64,000 nt of DNA from the NCBI GenBank assembly GCA_949293595.1, contig CASFDW010000004.1, positions 117,209 to 181,208 of the forward strand, in the 5' to 3' direction. The position numbers were made by a program, and so were the translations under genes. The notes under the pieces are model-generated. The model ran no database searches. It saw only the letters and a list, made by a program, of their open reading frames with translations, and was not told the DNA's origin. Source of the stretch: an uncultured Spirochaetales bacterium (GTDB lineage Bacteria; Spirochaetota; Spirochaetia; Sphaerochaetales; Sphaerochaetaceae). Positions 18,886 to 54,479 of this stretch are shown piece by piece (within the stretch, counting starts at the first letter, position 1; every line of letters begins with the position of its first letter).

Positions 18886-20055
18886 ATGAAAGCAAGGAAA
18901 CTTTTTGTTTTTGCTTTGGTTGCTCTTTTGGCCGTTGCAGGCGTTTTCGCAGGAGGTGCTTCCGAATCCTCTTCCGATACCTACAAGGTCGGTTTCATCG
19001 GACCTCTCACAGGAGACAATGCAAACTACGGCATCAGGTGTTCCAACGCCGCGAAGCTTGCTGTTTCTGAAATCAATGCAGCCGGCGGTATCAACGGCAA
19101 GATGGTCGAGCTCATAAGCGAGGACAGCGAGGGAACCGTCGACAAGGCTCTCGCAGGATATGAAAAGCTTGCATACATGGACAATGTATGTGCGATAATC
19201 GGACCCGTGTTCACTTCTCCGGCCCTTGCGGTCGCCCAGAGGGCTTGCGAGGACGGAATCGTCATGATCACCCCGAGCGCCACGCACAAGGACATCACCA
19301 ACGTCGGTGAGTATGTTTTCAGAACTGTTCCTTCCGATGCTCTCCAGTCGGAGGTGGCGGCATATTATTTCTATGAGGTCCTCGGATACAGGAACATCGC
19401 CACCCTCTATGCGATGAACGACTACAGCCAGGGGCTTGCAACCGGCTTGAAGGATTACTTCACCGCGCTCGGTGGAAACATCGTTGCCGAGGAGACATGC
19501 ATGGTTGGGGACAAGGATTTCAGGACCCAGCTTACCAAGATCAAGAGTCTCAACCCCGAGGCAATCTACATACCTAACTATACCGTCGAGATGGCCCAGA
19601 TCCTCGAGCAGGCGTCGCAGCTCGGAATCACGACCCCGTTCCTTTCCGGCGACGGATTCTCCGATCCCGAGATCTACAAGCTCGCAGGCGATTTCACCAA
19701 CGGCGTGGTCTACATCGGTCCTGCCCAGGCCGAGGCTTCGACGAAGCTTGCCGATTTCACGGCCGCCTACGGAAAAGCATACAACGGGGATGCTCCCGAT
19801 TCGTTTGCAACCAACAGCTATGATGCCATGTACATCCTTGCCGCTGCCATTGAGAGGGCAGGTGGTGCTGACCGCGAGGCTATAAAGAACGAGGTTGCGG
19901 CGACAAAGGACTTCGAGGGTGCCAACGGTACGATCAATTTCGCGCCTAATGGTGATCTCGTAGCCAGCCAGGGGGTATATGAAGTCATCGACCAGAATCC
20001 TGTTTATGAAGGTTCTTTCCAGGTACAGGACGGTCATATTGTCCAGGTCGGTTGA
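18886..20055 (+). CDS. livJ: branched-chain amino-acid-type ABC transporter substrate-binding protein
   Basis: 389 aa. The signal peptide MKARKLFVFALVALLAVAGV ends before FAGGASE. The mature part is a LivJ/LivK-type periplasmic binding protein: KVGFIGPLTGDNANYG, INAAGGINGKMVELI, IIGPVFTSPALA and VFRTVPSDALQ are family blocks. It is expected to bind Leu/Ile/Val or related amino acids; the exact ligand is uncertain. GGAGG at 18876-18880 precedes the ATG. It is the first gene of livJHMGF, separated from livH by a hairpin that could reduce read-through to the membrane genes. Confidence 0.9.
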   Translation: MKARKLFVFALVALLAVAGVFAGGASESSSDTYKVGFIGPLTGDNANYGIRCSNAAKLAVSEINAAGGINGKMVELISEDSEGTVDKALAGYEKLAYMDNVCAIIGPVFTSPALAVAQRACEDGIVMITPSATHKDITNVGEYVFRTVPSDALQSEVAAYYFYEVLGYRNIATLYAMNDYSQGLATGLKDYFTALGGNIVAEETCMVGDKDFRTQLTKIKSLNPEAIYIPNYTVEMAQILEQASQLGITTPFLSGDGFSDPEIYKLAGDFTNGVVYIGPAQAEASTKLADFTAAYGKAYNGDAPDSFATNSYDAMYILAAAIERAGGADREAIKNEVAATKDFEGANGTINFAPNGDLVASQGVYEVIDQNPVYEGSFQVQDGHIVQVG

Positions 20056-20081
20056 TTAATTTGCCGATTCGGTCGTTTTTG

Positions 20082-20112
20082 AATCTGTCGGAAGTTCCTC
20101 TTCCGGCAGATT
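20082..20112 (+). terminator. hairpin between livJ and livH (partial terminator/attenuator)
   Basis: A 13-bp stem (20082-20094 with 20100-20112, one G-U pair) with a 5-nt loop, followed by TATGTTTT rather than a clean U tract. The weak tail suggests partial termination or 3'-end protection of the livJ message, giving more binding protein than permease. Confidence 0.65.
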
Positions 20113-20160
20113 TATGTTTTAATATGGACTTGATATGAATAAAAATTATCGGAGGCATTT

Positions 20161-47134: not shown

Positions 47135-48109
47135 TCAATTCTTTCTCATCATGTTCTTCCATTCGGCAGGGGCAAGCTTCTCCTGCCTGTTGAAAACTTT
47201 GATGAAATAGTTTGTGTAATTGTATCCGCAGGCGGTTGCAATGTCCTTTATTTTCATGTTTGTCGTCATAAGCAGTCTTTTTGCATGGTCTATGCGCTCT
47301 CTTGTCAGGTACGAAGAGAAATTCTCACCCGTTTCCTTTTTGAAAATCATGCTCAGATACTGGGTGCTGTATCCCAATTCGGCTGAGACTGTATCGAGAC
47401 CAAACATGACGCTGGCAAAGTTTTTCTTTATAAGGCTCTTGATTTTCTCAACGATTGAAAGGTCGTTGTCCTGCACGAACGCCTCCTCGGAGATTCTTTT
47501 CAGAACATCAATCTGTTCTTCTTTTTTACAGTCCGAATTGAATTTCTCCAAAAAGTAGCTTCCTTCTATTGTTGTCCCGTAGGATTCGAAAAGCCTCCGA
47601 TACTCGCCCAGTGAGGACAGGAAACTCCTCTTGTCCTTGTTCGAATAGGAGCATGCCAGCCTCTGGATGACTTCGGAAAGGTTTAAGGCAAGCTTCTCGT
47701 CGTTCATTTTGTACGCATCGGCGAGCTCAAGGCCCATGTATCTGCGCTTTTCCTCTTTTTCCAGCAGTTCCCTGATCTGCGCGTATTTTATCGGTTTCGG
47801 AATGTAATCCACGACCCCAAGCTGCAATGCGGACCTGACAAGCTCGAAATCCGTAAAGCTGGAAAGTATGTATATCCTGAATTTGTCCGAGTAGGATTTT
47901 CTGATCTCCTCGATTGCCTCGAGGCCGGACAGATTCGGCATCTTTATATCGGTTATTATGAGGTCAGGTGTGTCGGAAGCGCATTTCTCGATAAGCTCGT
48001 TCCCATCGCAGACAAATTCGAACGAGACATAAGGTGAGCCGTATTGGTTTATATGATGGGAAAAAATCGTACAGACAAGAGATTCATCATCAGCAATCAA
48101 GATTTTCAT
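47135..48109 (-). CDS. response regulator with AraC-type DNA-binding domain (YesN-like)
   Basis: 324 aa. Receiver domain 1-120 with Asp54 in LIITDIKMPN as phosphate acceptor. A linker of about 100 residues follows, then two helix-turn-helices of the AraC family (225-324: LGYSTQYLSMIFKKETGENFSSYLTRERI and IATACGYNYTNYFIKVFNRQ). It overlaps the histidine-kinase gene by 4 bp. YesN-type regulators usually activate an adjacent sugar ABC importer, here the divergent 50001-54441 genes. Confidence 0.93.
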   Translation of the reverse strand: MKILIADDESLVCTIFSHHINQYGSPYVSFEFVCDGNELIEKCASDTPDLIITDIKMPNLSGLEAIEEIRKSYSDKFRIYILSSFTDFELVRSALQLGVVDYIPKPIKYAQIRELLEKEEKRRYMGLELADAYKMNDEKLALNLSEVIQRLACSYSNKDKRSFLSSLGEYRRLFESYGTTIEGSYFLEKFNSDCKKEEQIDVLKRISEEAFVQDNDLSIVEKIKSLIKKNFASVMFGLDTVSAELGYSTQYLSMIFKKETGENFSSYLTRERIDHAKRLLMTTNMKIKDIATACGYNYTNYFIKVFNRQEKLAPAEWKNMMRKN

Positions 48110-49821
48110 TTCAATGTCCCCATGAATGTGATTATTACGGTGCAGCCTTCCCCGGGGGTGCTGTCTATATTTACGGTGCTTTCGGAATAGAAGAGTTTAA
48201 GGCGTTTTATGCAGTTTGAAATACCTATTGAGGAATAGATGTCTATGGCGTTCTTATCAAAACCTATTCCGTTGTCTTTTATGGAGACTACTGTCAAACC
48301 GTTTTCCTTGGATGCCCTTATTAAGATTTTGCATGGCTTCTTCGATGGTTCCATTCCATGAATTATCGAGTTCTCTACAAACGGTTGGAACAGGAGCTTG
48401 GGGATGCTTATTTGCCCGATGTCGTCCGGAACGTCTATTGTATAGCTCAATCTGTTCTCAAAACGGCTCTTTTGCAGAACAAGATAATCGTTGATGAACT
48501 TTATCTCTTCATCCATCGTCCAGGACAAGTCGGATTTCAGCACGTTCCTGAGCAGATCGGAAAGACACATTATATTTTTTTCAAGCTGTTCGTATCGGCC
48601 TTGATATAACAGACCTATCATAGTGTTGAGTGTATTGAAAAGGAAATGTGGCTGTATCTGTTTGAGCAACGCCTTATATTCGGCTTCCTGCCGGGCTATC
48701 TGGGCAAGATAAGTTCTCTCTATCATTATCTCAAGCTGTTCTGTCATCTCATTAAGGCTGTTTCCCAACTCCTCAAGCTCCCATTGTTGCTTATGCTCAT
48801 AACGGACGGAGAAATCTCCGACCTCCACATGGCTCAAAAGATTCTTCATGCTGGAAATCGGGCCTGTTATCCTGTTTGAGAATCTTCTGTTCAGATAGAT
48901 TGCCGTAAACAGGGCGATAAGGTATAAAACCACTCCGATCGAATAGATCTTGATCGAATTAATGATTATGGCCCTGTTGTCCAAAAGCACATTGAGCGTA
49001 TAGGGGGTTCCTTCTATCTTTTGAGAGAAATGTCTTACCTCGAAGTTGTTTATCTTTGGTATTTTACCATCAACAATTGAAATTAGGTTCTCCATCCTGC
49101 TGTTCGTTGCCTCGTGGAATATGAGATTATCGTCCTCATCTGCAACATATATGGCACTTGGAACGTGGAACTCCTCCAGATGCAGGTATGTGTTCATCAT
49201 TGAAGGGAGGAAATCGAGCTTTATCACCGCATAGGGTTCGGTCGATATGTAATTGCGGATTGTTGTGACAATCGAAGCAACCCTTTCATCCGTTCCTGAA
49301 TCGAAATACTTTGGAACATGAGGAGGAACGAATATTATCTGTCCGTTGTTTTCCATCGCGTCCCGATACCATTCCTCATTTGTCCAATCATAACCTGGCA
49401 AAGGGTCTGCGAATACATAGTTCGAACTGAAATAAATCGTATCCTTCTCAGTCACTATCAATGCGCTGTGGAAATCATTTCCTGTGTATCTTATCGACGA
49501 TATGAGATTTCCCATGAGGATGTCGAATTCGGTTTTGTCGACATATTCAACCGTACCCTTTTTCCTGATATCCTTTATTTTGTTGACGGTTTCGGAAGAA
49601 AAGCTTGGCAGGATGATGATTTGCTTGAGCTGGTTAATGTAGAGCCCGGCCTCTCGTGCCAGACTCTTTATATAACTGTCGGCGATGATATTGATATCCT
49701 TTTTATAATATTCAAGAAGAATTCCAGAACTGAGTATGACGATAAGAAAAAACGGTATCAATGTGCTTAGGAGGAAGTAACGCATCAGACGGCGTGAGAG
49801 ATTGTTCTTTTTCTTTGTCAT
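48106..49821 (-). CDS. sensor histidine kinase, YesM/LytS-type
   Basis: 571 aa. TM1 at 13-36, an extracytoplasmic sensing region of about 250 residues, TM2 at about 289-311, HAMP 312-366, the His_kinase block with His392 in QIQPHFLFNTLNT, and a C-terminal ATPase domain ending with SIKDNGIGFD and PGEGCTVIITF. It should sense an external ligand, probably a carbohydrate, and phosphorylate the 47135-48109 regulator. No Shine-Dalgarno is evident before ATG 49821. Confidence 0.93.
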   Translation of the reverse strand: MTKKKNNLSRRLMRYFLLSTLIPFFLIVILSSGILLEYYKKDINIIADSYIKSLAREAGLYINQLKQIIILPSFSSETVNKIKDIRKKGTVEYVDKTEFDILMGNLISSIRYTGNDFHSALIVTEKDTIYFSSNYVFADPLPGYDWTNEEWYRDAMENNGQIIFVPPHVPKYFDSGTDERVASIVTTIRNYISTEPYAVIKLDFLPSMMNTYLHLEEFHVPSAIYVADEDDNLIFHEATNSRMENLISIVDGKIPKINNFEVRHFSQKIEGTPYTLNVLLDNRAIIINSIKIYSIGVVLYLIALFTAIYLNRRFSNRITGPISSMKNLLSHVEVGDFSVRYEHKQQWELEELGNSLNEMTEQLEIMIERTYLAQIARQEAEYKALLKQIQPHFLFNTLNTMIGLLYQGRYEQLEKNIMCLSDLLRNVLKSDLSWTMDEEIKFINDYLVLQKSRFENRLSYTIDVPDDIGQISIPKLLFQPFVENSIIHGMEPSKKPCKILIRASKENGLTVVSIKDNGIGFDKNAIDIYSSIGISNCIKRLKLFYSESTVNIDSTPGEGCTVIITFMGTLK

Positions 49822-50000: not shown

Positions 50001-50675
50001 ATGAATCTTTCTTTTGGCAGGGCTGTAGGCCGTAAATTCAATCCGGATGGTAGCGTGAGGAGGTTTCCAGGCAATACGTTCATCTGCCTGCTCGACCACG
50101 ATTCGGATGTGTACATGAAGGTGAAGGAGCTGAAGGACGCCGTCGCCTGTTCAAAAGCGGGATCCTGTCTGACACTGTTGCCGGATGAAAGCCTCCATAT
50201 GACTGCAATCGAAGGGGTTTGTGACGAGGTGAGGGAGAAGCAGTACTGGACCGACAGGTTTCCCTTGGACGCACCGTTGTCCGAGATAGATGATTTCTTT
50301 GAGTCACAATGGAGGAAGGCTTCACTCCTGGGTGATGTCAGAATGAGGTTCGATCAGCTCTGGATGGACAGTGGCATAAGCATAGTGCTGTATCCGGCCT
50401 CCTATGAGGATGACAGAAGAATCAGAGATTGGCGCGACGAGGTTTCGGCCCTGACCGGTCTCAGGTTCCCCGGGCATGACAGATATCGTTTCCATATCGG
50501 ACTTGCATATGGGATACGGATGCCGGACACGAAGGAGAAGGAGTCGTTGAAGGAACTGAGGTTCTGGTTTGACAAAAAGTGCAGGCAGGAGGTTTTTGAG
50601 TTCCTTGTACCTAGACCGTCCCTTACGTTCTTTGACGACATGTTCTTTTTCAGCAAGCAACGGATAGCACGATAG
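50001..50675 (+). CDS. DUF1868 / 2H-phosphoesterase-like protein, copy 1
   Basis: 224 aa. The DUF1868 pattern is clear: GRKFNPDGSVRRFPGNTFICL near the start and two H-x-T/S-like sites, His66-Met-Thr68 and His165-Ile-Gly167. In the 2H superfamily both sites normally read HxT or HxS; the Gly at the second site is unusual and may reduce or alter activity. 2H enzymes open 2',3'-cyclic or other cyclic phosphodiesters. The ATG has AAGGAG upstream. It is about 60% similar by eye to the next gene, from which 16 bp separate it, so it is a tandem duplicate. Confidence 0.78.
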   Translation: MNLSFGRAVGRKFNPDGSVRRFPGNTFICLLDHDSDVYMKVKELKDAVACSKAGSCLTLLPDESLHMTAIEGVCDEVREKQYWTDRFPLDAPLSEIDDFFESQWRKASLLGDVRMRFDQLWMDSGISIVLYPASYEDDRRIRDWRDEVSALTGLRFPGHDRYRFHIGLAYGIRMPDTKEKESLKELRFWFDKKCRQEVFEFLVPRPSLTFFDDMFFFSKQRIAR

Positions 50676-50691
50676 AGCTAAGGAGAGATAT

Positions 50692-51375
50692 ATGCTGCAT
50701 TTGAATTTTGGACAGGCGGTAGGGCACAAGTTCAACTCTGACGGAAGTGTCAGGAATTTCCCTGGCAACACAATCATCTGCCTTTTAGACCATTCCACCG
50801 ATGTCTTCCGGAGGGTGAAGGAACAAAAGGATTTCCTGGCCTGTTCGCCGGCAGGGGGCTGCATAACCGTATTGCCCGATGAGAGTCTGCATATGACGGC
50901 GATAGAAGGGGTTTGTGATAAGGTTAGGGAAAGGCCGTACTGGACGGACCGGTTTCCTTTGGATGCGCCATTGTCGGAGATTGACGATTTTCTTGAGGAA
51001 CAATGGAAGAAGATCCCGCCTCTCGGTGTTGTCAGGATGAGGTTCGACCAACTCTGGATGGACAGCGGTATATGCATCGGCCTGTATCCCGACCATTACG
51101 AGGATGACAAGAGGATCAGGGATTGGAGGGATTTCGTATCAAACATCACTGGTTTGAGGTTCCCCGGGCATGACAGGTACCGTTTCCATATCAGTCTTGC
51201 TTATGGGATAAGGATGCCGGATGAGAAGGAAGACGCATTTCTCGAGACTTTGAAAAAGAAATTTGACAGAATGTGCAAAGAGGCTGTATTCACATTCGAG
51301 GTTCCCGAGCCTTCATTGACATTTTTTGACGGCATGTTCTTTTTCAACAAAAACAGGATTCCAAGAAAAAAATAG
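50692..51375 (+). CDS. DUF1868 / 2H-phosphoesterase-like protein, copy 2
   Basis: 227 aa. Same architecture as copy 1: GHKFNSDGSVRNFPGNTIICL, His67-Met-Thr69 and His166-Ile-Ser168. Both catalytic motifs keep Thr/Ser, so this copy is probably the active cyclic-phosphodiester hydrolase. Conserved stretches between copies include LMDERL-like PDESLHMTAIEGVCD and FDQLWMDSGI. A good GGAGA precedes the ATG. It is 16 bp upstream of the sugar-binding-protein gene, which suggests that the imported substrate and the phosphoesterase belong together. Confidence 0.78.
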   Translation: MLHLNFGQAVGHKFNSDGSVRNFPGNTIICLLDHSTDVFRRVKEQKDFLACSPAGGCITVLPDESLHMTAIEGVCDKVRERPYWTDRFPLDAPLSEIDDFLEEQWKKIPPLGVVRMRFDQLWMDSGICIGLYPDHYEDDKRIRDWRDFVSNITGLRFPGHDRYRFHISLAYGIRMPDEKEDAFLETLKKKFDRMCKEAVFTFEVPEPSLTFFDGMFFFNKNRIPRKK

Positions 51376-51391: not shown

Positions 51392-52648
51392 ATGAAAAAG
51401 ATTTTATCAATTCTGTTCATTGCTGCAGTCTGCACCCTGTGTGTGTTTGCCCAGGGCGGTAATGAGAAAGGTTCTGCGGCAGACGACGGCCTTAAAGGGA
51501 AGATAACTGTTGCATCGAATGCGACTGAACTCCAGTATGAAGCCATGCAGACGCTTGTCGACAAGTTCATGGAGGAGAATCCCGGAGTGGATGTCGAATT
51601 CATCTCGTATTCCAAGGATTATGAGAATCTGATGAAGGCGAAGATGGCAGCCAACGATCTTCCTGATGTTTTTGCAACCCACGGGTGGTCCGTTAAGAGA
51701 TATGCCGAGTATCTTCTTCCTCTGAACGACCTTGATTTTGTCGACAACATCGCACCGGCATCCAAGGATATCCTTTCCACTGAGACTGGGGATGTTCTTA
51801 CCGTTCCGATGAACATAGAGCAGACAGGCATAATCTATAACAAGGACATATTGGAGAAGGCGGGATGGGATTCTGTCCCAAGGACATTCGACGAGTTCCT
51901 CGAATGCTGCGAGGATGTCAAGGCTCTCGGTGTTATCCCTGTGTACATTACAGGTAAGGACACGAGATCGCAGGCCAACCTCATGGATCTCATCGCCCCT
52001 TCCATGCTCATTGCAACAAAGGATGATTTTTCTGAATCCCTTTATGATGGATCGTTCGATTGGTCCAATTGGGAAAGGGTTTCTGGATTCCTTTACGAGC
52101 TTAAGGAAAAAGGGTATCTGAATGTGGACTGTAACACAGCGGATCCGATCTATACTCCTGAAAAGCTTGCTTTTGGCGAGGTGATGTTCGCATTCTCCGG
52201 CATGTCCATCATTACCAATGCGCAGGAAATCAATCCCGATGTGAACCTGTCCATGATGCCGATTCCCGCATATCTCGACACAGACGAGCAGATCCTCATA
52301 GGAGGGGAGAGGGAGAGTTACGGAATCTGGAAGGACAGCCCGAACCTTGAAATTGCAAAGATGTTCATTGAATTCATTGCAAGGCCTGAAAACGTCAAGT
52401 ATTTCTGTGAGACAACTGGAATGCCTTGCGCCTTCACGAATGTCGATGTCGAGGTACCGCTGGCGGAAGATTTTGCAGCATACCAGGATCTTGCAATACT
52501 TCCTTATTTCGATAGGGAATGGCTGCCTTCCGGAATGTGGGCCACAATGCGCAGCATCGGCGGCGGTCTGACATCCAATGAGATTTCCGTAAAAGAGTCT
52601 TGCTCAATCATGGAGAAGAGCTACAACGATCTGAGAGCACAGTTGTAA
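51392..52648 (+). CDS. sugar-type ABC transporter substrate-binding protein
   Basis: 418 aa. Signal peptide MKKILSILFIAAVCTLCVFA then QGGNEKG; Cys residues in the hydrophobic core do not form a lipobox. The mature protein is an extracellular-solute-binding family 1 (MalE/UgpB-type) protein: VDVEFISYSKDYENLMKAKM, LPDVFATHGWS and PMNIEQTGIIYNKDILEKAG are typical. The ligand is unknown; the neighbouring phosphoesterases hint at a phosphorylated or cyclic sugar (inference). A hairpin follows the stop. Confidence 0.88.
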   Translation: MKKILSILFIAAVCTLCVFAQGGNEKGSAADDGLKGKITVASNATELQYEAMQTLVDKFMEENPGVDVEFISYSKDYENLMKAKMAANDLPDVFATHGWSVKRYAEYLLPLNDLDFVDNIAPASKDILSTETGDVLTVPMNIEQTGIIYNKDILEKAGWDSVPRTFDEFLECCEDVKALGVIPVYITGKDTRSQANLMDLIAPSMLIATKDDFSESLYDGSFDWSNWERVSGFLYELKEKGYLNVDCNTADPIYTPEKLAFGEVMFAFSGMSIITNAQEINPDVNLSMMPIPAYLDTDEQILIGGERESYGIWKDSPNLEIAKMFIEFIARPENVKYFCETTGMPCAFTNVDVEVPLAEDFAAYQDLAILPYFDREWLPSGMWATMRSIGGGLTSNEISVKESCSIMEKSYNDLRAQL

Positions 52649-52672
52649 TCCAAGATCACGTCTTTTCGATCA

Positions 52673-52713
52673 GGGGATTGGAAACAATCCCCGTTTTCAT
52701 CAGGGGGAAACGG
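52673..52713 (+). promoter_or_regulatory. alternative RNA hairpins over the permease ribosome site
   Basis: Arm GGGGATTG (52673-52680) pairs perfectly with CAATCCCC (52685-52692) around a GAAA tetraloop. The same CCCC (52689-52692) can instead pair with the ribosome site GGGGG (52703-52707). CCGTTT (52691-52696) can also pair with AAACGG (52708-52713), which reaches the first base of the GTG. The two states are mutually exclusive, so this may control permease translation or transcript read-through. Confidence 0.5.
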
Positions 52714-53615
52714 TGAAAAAGAATTCTATCAAACGGTTTTTGCAGTCGGACCCGAAAGCGCTGTCGCTCATGACGGTTCCCGCATTGCTTTTGTTTTTCA
52801 TGTTTGTTCTCGTTCCCATCATAAGCGGTATAAACATATCGTTCACAAATTGGAACGGGTATTCGCAGAATTATTCCTATGTGGGGGTGAAAAACTATGT
52901 GAATCTGTTTAAGGACGCCTCCGTCCGCATCGCCTTCAGGAATACTCTGATCTATGGGTTCGGTTCCACATTGCTCCAGACCATACTCGGACTTGCTTTT
53001 GCTATGCTCCTTGTGAACCGTTTCCTGCTCCGCGGGGTAACCAGGACGCTGATCTACATGCCAGCCATGGTCGCTCAGCTTATAATAGGTTATATATGGT
53101 ATTTCCTCGTCACCTATGAGAGGGGGGCGATAAACGACATCGTAAAACTGTTCGGACACGCTCCTGTCGATTGGATGAGTAATGGCATGAGGGCTGTCAT
53201 GATCATCATGTTCATCAATGCGATAGAGTATTGCGGTAAGACGATGATCATCTTCATAGCAGGTCTTGAGTCGATACCGGACATGTACAAGGAGGCGGCG
53301 AGCATAGATGGTGCAAATCTTTGGCAGTCGACAATCCACATCACTTTGCCGATGCTGATGCCGGCTTTCACAACAAGCCTTGTTCTCAATGTCATAGGAG
53401 GATTGAAGATGTTTGGCCTGGTTGTGGCCCTTACGAACGGAGGTCCGGGCTACGCCTCACATTCGCTGTCATCGCTTATCAATGAGCTTTATTTCGGCAC
53501 CCAGCAGGCAGGTTTCTCCGCCGCCCTCGGTATGGCAAGTTTCATTTTTATAATGTTTGTCAGCATATTGCTTAGAAAATATCTTGAGAGAAAGGAGATG
53601 CAGTACAATGGCTAA
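52713..53615 (+). CDS. sugar-type ABC transporter permease (MalF/UgpA family)
   Basis: 300 aa from a GTG just after GGGGG. Six helices and the EAA loop EAASIDGANLWQSTIHITLPML identify the MalF/UgpA-type permease. It forms a heterodimer with the next protein. The gene overlaps it by 8 bp. Confidence 0.92.
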   Translation: MKKNSIKRFLQSDPKALSLMTVPALLLFFMFVLVPIISGINISFTNWNGYSQNYSYVGVKNYVNLFKDASVRIAFRNTLIYGFGSTLLQTILGLAFAMLLVNRFLLRGVTRTLIYMPAMVAQLIIGYIWYFLVTYERGAINDIVKLFGHAPVDWMSNGMRAVMIIMFINAIEYCGKTMIIFIAGLESIPDMYKEAASIDGANLWQSTIHITLPMLMPAFTTSLVLNVIGGLKMFGLVVALTNGGPGYASHSLSSLINELYFGTQQAGFSAALGMASFIFIMFVSILLRKYLERKEMQYNG

Positions 53616-54441
53616 GATCAGAAACAATCTCAAAAGCAGGTATAATTGGATCAAGAACCTCGTTGCGGTTTTCATAAGTGCTTTCTATTTTGCTCCGTTC
53701 TACATACTTGTTTCCCTGTCCCTCAAGACAAGATCCGACAGGACGAGTCACTGGATTTTTCCCAAGGAGCCCACGCTGGAGTCATATGCCTATGCGTTCG
53801 AAAACGGAAAAATCGGGCTTGCGATATGTAATACTCTGATTATCACTGTAATCTCCGTCATACTTGTAGTGCTGATCGGGTCCATCGCTTCCTATCCTCT
53901 TGCAAGGCGTAAAACTAAGTTCAATAAAACGGTTCTCTCTCTTATTGTGGGAGTCATGATGGTGCCGCCTCTTTCCGTTTTGGTGCCGATTTATAAGGAG
54001 ATGATTGCATTGAAAGGGGTGAACACATATTGGGGTATAATCGTTTTATCTGTGACATACAATCTGCCTCTTGCAATCTTCATGTTCACGAATTTTATTT
54101 CCGCAATTCCGAGATCACTTGATGAGGCGGCCCTGATAGACGGATGTAGCCAGTTCATGATATTCCCGAGGATAATCCTTCCGAACATGATGCCGGTTGT
54201 TTCCTCGGTTCTGATCCTCACTGGTGTCGGAATATGGAATGATTACAGTTTTCAGCTTTACATATTGCAGAAGCCCTCGCTGAAGACGATAACGTTGGCC
54301 ATGTCGACATTCTTCGGAGAAAGTACAAATATGGCTGCCGCTGCTGCCGCTGCGATAATGGCTGTCCTCCCTGTGATAATACTCTATCTATGTCTGCAGA
54401 AGTATTTCATCAAAGGCTCGATGGACAGTGCCGTGAAATGA
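53608..54441 (+). CDS. sugar-type ABC transporter permease (MalG/UgpE family)
   Basis: 277 aa from ATG 53608, which overlaps the first permease by 8 bp; a longer frame upstream runs inside that gene. Six helices; the coupling loop is DEAALIDGCSQFMIFPRIILPNM. No ATPase gene for this importer lies in the window, so it presumably uses a shared MsmX/UgpC-type ATPase encoded elsewhere. Confidence 0.92.
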   Translation: MAKIRNNLKSRYNWIKNLVAVFISAFYFAPFYILVSLSLKTRSDRTSHWIFPKEPTLESYAYAFENGKIGLAICNTLIITVISVILVVLIGSIASYPLARRKTKFNKTVLSLIVGVMMVPPLSVLVPIYKEMIALKGVNTYWGIIVLSVTYNLPLAIFMFTNFISAIPRSLDEAALIDGCSQFMIFPRIILPNMMPVVSSVLILTGVGIWNDYSFQLYILQKPSLKTITLAMSTFFGESTNMAAAAAAAIMAVLPVIILYLCLQKYFIKGSMDSAVK

Positions 54442-54479
54442 GGATACACTAGAGCGAACCTGTATCCAGGGGTGTTTGC

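Follow-up and report, generated by a model that had tools for sequence, protein, structure and literature searches.

A recurrent hairpin between the solute-binding protein and permease genes of a spirochaete sugar importer operon

The importer operon and its intercistronic hairpin

The window analyzed here is the whole 64,000-nucleotide stretch of contig CASFDW010000004.1 (assembly GCA_949293595.1), taken from a 2.08 Mb genome whose nearest named relatives are uncultured Spirochaetales. Positions 51392–54441 of the window hold a sugar-type ABC importer operon, in which the gene of a solute-binding protein (SBP) is followed by two permease genes assigned by Pfam to BPD_transp_1. Its features are the following:

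51392–52648, plus strand: SBP gene, SBP_bac_8 / SBP_bac_1 by family match; stop codon TAA at 52646–52648
52673–52692, plus strand: intercistronic hairpin of 8 bp with a GAAA loop, -14.7 kcal/mol, followed by GTTTTCATC; from folding, and terminator-like in a pattern scan
52693–52698, plus strand: weak U-tract GTTTTC 3' of the hairpin, from the sequence; can also pair with 52706–52711, as 5' arm of a small hairpin
52702–52707, plus strand: ribosome-binding site AGGGGG of the permease 1 gene, from the sequence; AAGGGG in the ortholog L031 and AGGGGG in the ortholog L032
52713–53615, plus strand: ABC permease 1 gene, BPD_transp_1, with a GTG start at 52713–52715; from family match and orthologous N-termini
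53608–54441, plus strand: ABC permease 2 gene, BPD_transp_1 by family match, overlapping permease 1

The gap between the SBP stop and the permease GTG, a start codon backed by the N-termini of the orthologs, measures 64 nt. At the following junction the two permease genes overlap and no hairpin is present. Immediately 5' of the SBP gene, two adjacent paralogs of the 2H-phosphodiesterase family (DUF1868, PF08975) occupy 50001–51375 and adjoin a gene pair for a histidine kinase and an AraC-type response regulator in the opposite orientation (47135–49821). At the other end of the operon, permease 2 is separated from a TauE/SafE gene (54480) by a gap at 54442–54479, which contains GGATACA...TGTATCC right before a possible ribosome site; the hairpins predicted in this gap are weak (-8.2).

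The initial annotation described a GAAA-tetraloop hairpin with a perfect 8-bp stem between the SBP stop and the permease GTG, and both its coordinates and its pairing were confirmed. The arms GGGGATTG (52673–52680) and CAATCCCC (52685–52692) pair at 8/8 positions around the loop at 52681–52684, and the energy given above was computed in a 112-nt context. On its 3' side, the tail GTTTTCAT carries four U after one G (G-UUUU-C), a weak U-tract that fits a putative weak terminator. A terminator pattern scan flags the hairpin together with this tail, but the region has 5 such sites against 5.0 expected in shuffles. The small extra hairpin GTTTTC/GGAAAC (52693–52698 with 52706–52711), whose loop takes up some of the ribosome site, is compatible with the main hairpin and can form in the window and L031, but not in L032.

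The SBP-permease gap as a whole folds better than 200/200 dinucleotide shuffles. A hairpin of equal or greater strength nevertheless appeared in 26/200 dinucleotide shuffles of the gap, and a longer, 121-nt stretch is unremarkable (z -0.46). Because of these last two results the hairpin by itself is not striking; what is striking is that relatives and paralogous operons carry a hairpin at the same place.

Recurrence in orthologous, paralogous and distant operons

The orthologous operons are those of the named records L031–L042, with permease identities of 71–97%; among 48 same-genus genomes, including that of the window, 8 had a match with an E-value no higher than 1e-120. A hairpin occupies the SBP-permease gap in 12/12 orthologous operons, including L036, for which the hairpin finder gave just an inner -9.5 hairpin and the whole stem is present in the sequence. 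Among the orthologs the position of the hairpin is kept and its sequence changes, with at least four unrelated versions: the stem GGGGATTG is common to the window, L031 and L032, an GGAGCTGC-like stem occurs in L034, L037, L040 and L042, an GGATGTCTGnACC-like stem in L039 and L041, GGGGCTG in L035 and L036, and still other versions in L033 and L038. When the window and 8 orthologs were inspected one base pair at a time, the stem was fully paired in all nine. The stem starts 24 nt after the SBP stop in the window, L031 and L032 and 7–14 nt after it in the other orthologs, and at least 4 T fall within the next 8 nt in the window and in 8 of the 12 orthologous hairpins.

The shuffle frequency reported above would favor a chance hairpin with no function, but we consider this explanation very improbable, as the hairpin recurs throughout the orthologs and in most of the paralogous gaps described below. 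In the three species whose gap can be aligned (the window and its only alignable close relatives, L031 and L032), variable columns number 0/16 in the stem, compared with 8/25 upstream (p 0.014) and 3/21 downstream (p 0.24). The element is real and probably functional, and it is ordinary.

Paralogous operons of the same genome were collected from 23 permease hits, 20 of which were re-examined along with that of the window; C4:33764 and C4:102578 were left out. Hits were dropped when there was no gene call (C2:227023), when the upstream gene was divergent (four hits), or when visual inspection, with no family search, suggested that the upstream gene does not encode an SBP (L149 and L151). The gene caller was simple and its starts are approximate, and the window permease start (GTG 52713) and the TauE gene were set by hand. 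A hairpin at -13 kcal/mol or better is found in 12/14 SBP-to-permease 1 gaps, or 11/13 without L135, the one operon of the 14 in which Pfam gives no match for the upstream protein and hence no support for SBP identity. Other same-strand gaps reach even -10 or better in just 38/216 cases (Fisher p 2e-7), where gaps under 15 nt were scored as lacking a hairpin without being folded, those above 400 nt were left unfolded (8 of these 216, and 2 of 44 convergent gaps), and the others include at least one SBP-permease junction from a different importer family (20161), which works against the contrast. When gaps of 30–159 nt are compared at -13 or better, the proportions are 12/12 and 20/46, respectively (p 3e-4). 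Both SBP-permease gaps without a hairpin are short (20 and 27 nt), and the gaps from permease 1 to the next gene in the 14 operons are all 14 nt or less. The device is regular, in that all sampled own-genome SBP-permease junctions long enough to accommodate a hairpin contain one, and the hairpin sequences have little in common. The liv-type importer in the same window, which is unrelated to the sugar importer, likewise has a 15-bp hairpin (20080–20114) between its branched-chain-amino-acid-type binding protein gene (Peripla_BP_6, 18886–20055) and its BPD_transp_2 permease gene (20161).

More distant relatives were screened with an SBP profile built from the own-genome upstream proteins. Eight of them lacked a usable upstream ORF (L006, L007, L011, L012, L018, L068, L095 and L104), four failed the profile (L015, L028, L030 and L103), and L087, L096 and L100 were left out. 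At the class level, 17/19 SBP-permease pairs have a hairpin at -14 or better. At -10 or better, hairpins were found in 10/10 pairs of Pelagibacteraceae, 10/12 of Lactobacillales and 5/9 of Bacillales; the hairpin is not universal, with 4/15 pairs in Clostridia and 0/7 in Sphingomonas, and in these two groups it is lacking mostly where the genes nearly touch. The Pelagibacteraceae hairpin, GGGG(C)GAAA(G)CCCC in L085–L098, exhibits compensatory base-pair changes: both sides have changed in 3/11 pairs, 96% of cells are paired, and the covariation score exceeds that of 500/500 shuffles.

The proposed translational switch

The initial annotation had read the hairpin as one state of a translational switch, in which the 3' arm would either stay in the hairpin or pair with the ribosome site of the permease gene, such that opening the hairpin would shut off permease translation. 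The required pairings do exist on paper in the window, where CCCC (52689–52692) can pair with GGGG in 52703–52707, and CCGTTT (52691–52696) can pair with AAACGG (52708–52713) and so reach the start codon. Because blocking the 5' arm of the hairpin lowers the predicted access of the ribosome site from 0.60 to 0.34 in one context, such a switch would be physically possible. However, the alternative pairings are computed at only -7.2 (CCCC/GGGG) and -4.3 kcal/mol (CCGTTT/AAACGG) in the 112-nt context, and the hairpin, which is also made first, is 7.5 kcal/mol more stable than its rival. The main stem is invariant among the window, L031 and L032 and hence uninformative as to compensatory changes, and the CCGTTT/AAACGG pairing is broken in L032, one of these two close relatives, which has CCATTT. 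The two exclusive structures are not both conserved in the relatives.

A motif complementary to a ribosome site occurs in 10/13 orthologous 3' arms, which share descent, but in just 4/11 own-genome paralogs. Convergent gene ends have no ribosome site behind them and hence nothing to mask; there, complementary arms number 13/30 when counted strand-wise (15 hairpins; 6/15 and 7/15 per strand). Exchanged hairpins also mask as well as native ones: over 39 gaps, in a set that excludes L036 and L022, includes the identical L020 and L021 and has some doubtful starts among the relatives, the predicted loss of ribosome-site access on blocking the 5' arm averaged 0.043 for native and 0.034 (sd 0.017) for permuted hairpins, with 6/20 permutations equaling or exceeding native masking, and in the orthologs alone it was 0.086 and 0.059 (sd 0.040). 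Co-evolved masking of the ribosome site was rejected on these grounds, since the motif counts of the own-genome paralogs resemble those of convergent ends and swapped hairpins mask equally. A riboswitch was rejected as well: Rfam at gathering scores yielded one tRNA in the window and no match at the hairpin gap, and there is no conserved second structure.

The initial annotation further named, as one example of what could prevent the hairpin, a ribosome finishing the upstream gene. When halted at a stop codon, a ribosome shields only about a dozen nucleotides on the 3' side. Since the window stem starts 24 nt past the stop, it is probably out of reach and should not be opened by a terminating ribosome, whereas in the other orthologs, with their more closely spaced stems, this might occur. 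Altogether, we judge the switch to be highly unlikely. The broader suggestion that an RNA element sets the ratio of SBP to permease fares better, as there is a probably functional structure at the junction for which a role in this ratio is probable, without the switch.

A dual role can also be envisaged, in which the hairpin would end or protect the SBP mRNA and, once opened or cut, the CCCC of its 3' arm (CUCC in relatives) would mask the permease ribosome site. Permease translation would then report the state of the SBP-permease junction, but we regard this as a distinctly improbable arrangement. Separately, in the own-genome operon L140, the sequence directly after the SBP stop is predicted to bridge a strong hairpin and pair with the ribosome site of the permease gene, for which the predicted access is 0.05; this makes the gap a candidate for translational coupling.

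Probable partial termination or mRNA protection, and known systems

The most convincing explanation, and in our view a very probable one, is that the hairpin is a constitutive intercistronic stem-loop that raises SBP over permease mRNA by partial termination, by 3'-end protection, or by both. This explanation is supported by the hairpins in the orthologs, in the own-genome gaps, in the class-level pairs and in the liv-type importer, and by the compensatory changes in Pelagibacteraceae. After the SBP gene, RNA polymerase would transcribe the hairpin and the weak U-tract behind it, where a part of the transcripts would end through leaky intrinsic termination. SBP mRNA ending at the hairpin, either by termination or once the permease portion has been degraded as far as the hairpin, would be shielded from 3'-5' exonucleases. 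The result would be more SBP mRNA than permease mRNA, fitting the SBP excess that importers require. The position and conservation of the hairpin are observed here, and from similar published cases we infer partial termination and stabilization.

A sub-case of this explanation is a pure mRNA-decay barrier of the malE-malF type, without real termination. It has that precedent in its favor, and several own-genome SBP-permease hairpins have no U-tract, with tails such as TGATCGAT, ATGTGAGG and GAGGTTAC. The T-rich stretches after the window hairpin and most orthologous ones, as in partial terminators, speak against it, and we hold it to be possible but somewhat doubtful. In U content 3' of the hairpin, SBP-permease gaps and convergent gene ends showed no difference (Mann-Whitney p 0.87), so that this measure does not separate termination from protection.

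Stem-loops after SBP genes have been described to cause premature, partial termination, amounting to 20.7–96.1% in reporter operons (Wu 2022, PMC9045158). In the portion of that paper available, these stem-loops have dG values of -38.3 to -10.1 and mostly weak U tails, and stabilization of the SBP mRNA is proposed there as a further effect. In E. coli, a structure between malE and malF protects malE mRNA, and in the ABC operons considered in the accessible text of that source the stabilized gene was invariably the binding protein (PMC5927463). A 3'-end map of Borrelia, as far as its text was available, treats termination in general (PMC10319736), and no account of SBP-permease hairpins in spirochaetes was found in the literature searched. 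Our results add a spirochaete lineage to the range of a stoichiometry device that is already known, and do not introduce a new principle. For annotation, SBP-permease hairpins should not be taken for operon ends or riboswitches.

By analogy, the hairpin belongs with the published stem-loops that follow SBP genes and raise SBP over permease. The elements of Wu 2022 (PMC9045158), in the portion available, are the closest in form: the window hairpin also lies between an SBP gene and a downstream gene, its energy falls within their range of about -10 to -38, and its weak U-rich 3' tract corresponds to their Type II. Theirs are from Clostridium, whereas ours is a spirochaete element with an 8-bp stem and a putative termination function. 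The malE-malF structure (Newbury 1987, described in PMC5927463) is likewise a stable RNA structure at the SBP-permease junction of a sugar importer operon; as described in the accessible text it has no U-tract, whereas the window has one short hairpin followed by four U, and an effect on decay would hold here by analogy. In the selective RNA processing and stabilization (SRPS) operons of Clostridium (PMC8219983, as far as available), 3' stem-loops set stoichiometry, ABC operons included; the window hairpin differs in having no known processing site, and shares with them the 3' stem-loop that may set the stoichiometry of an ABC operon.
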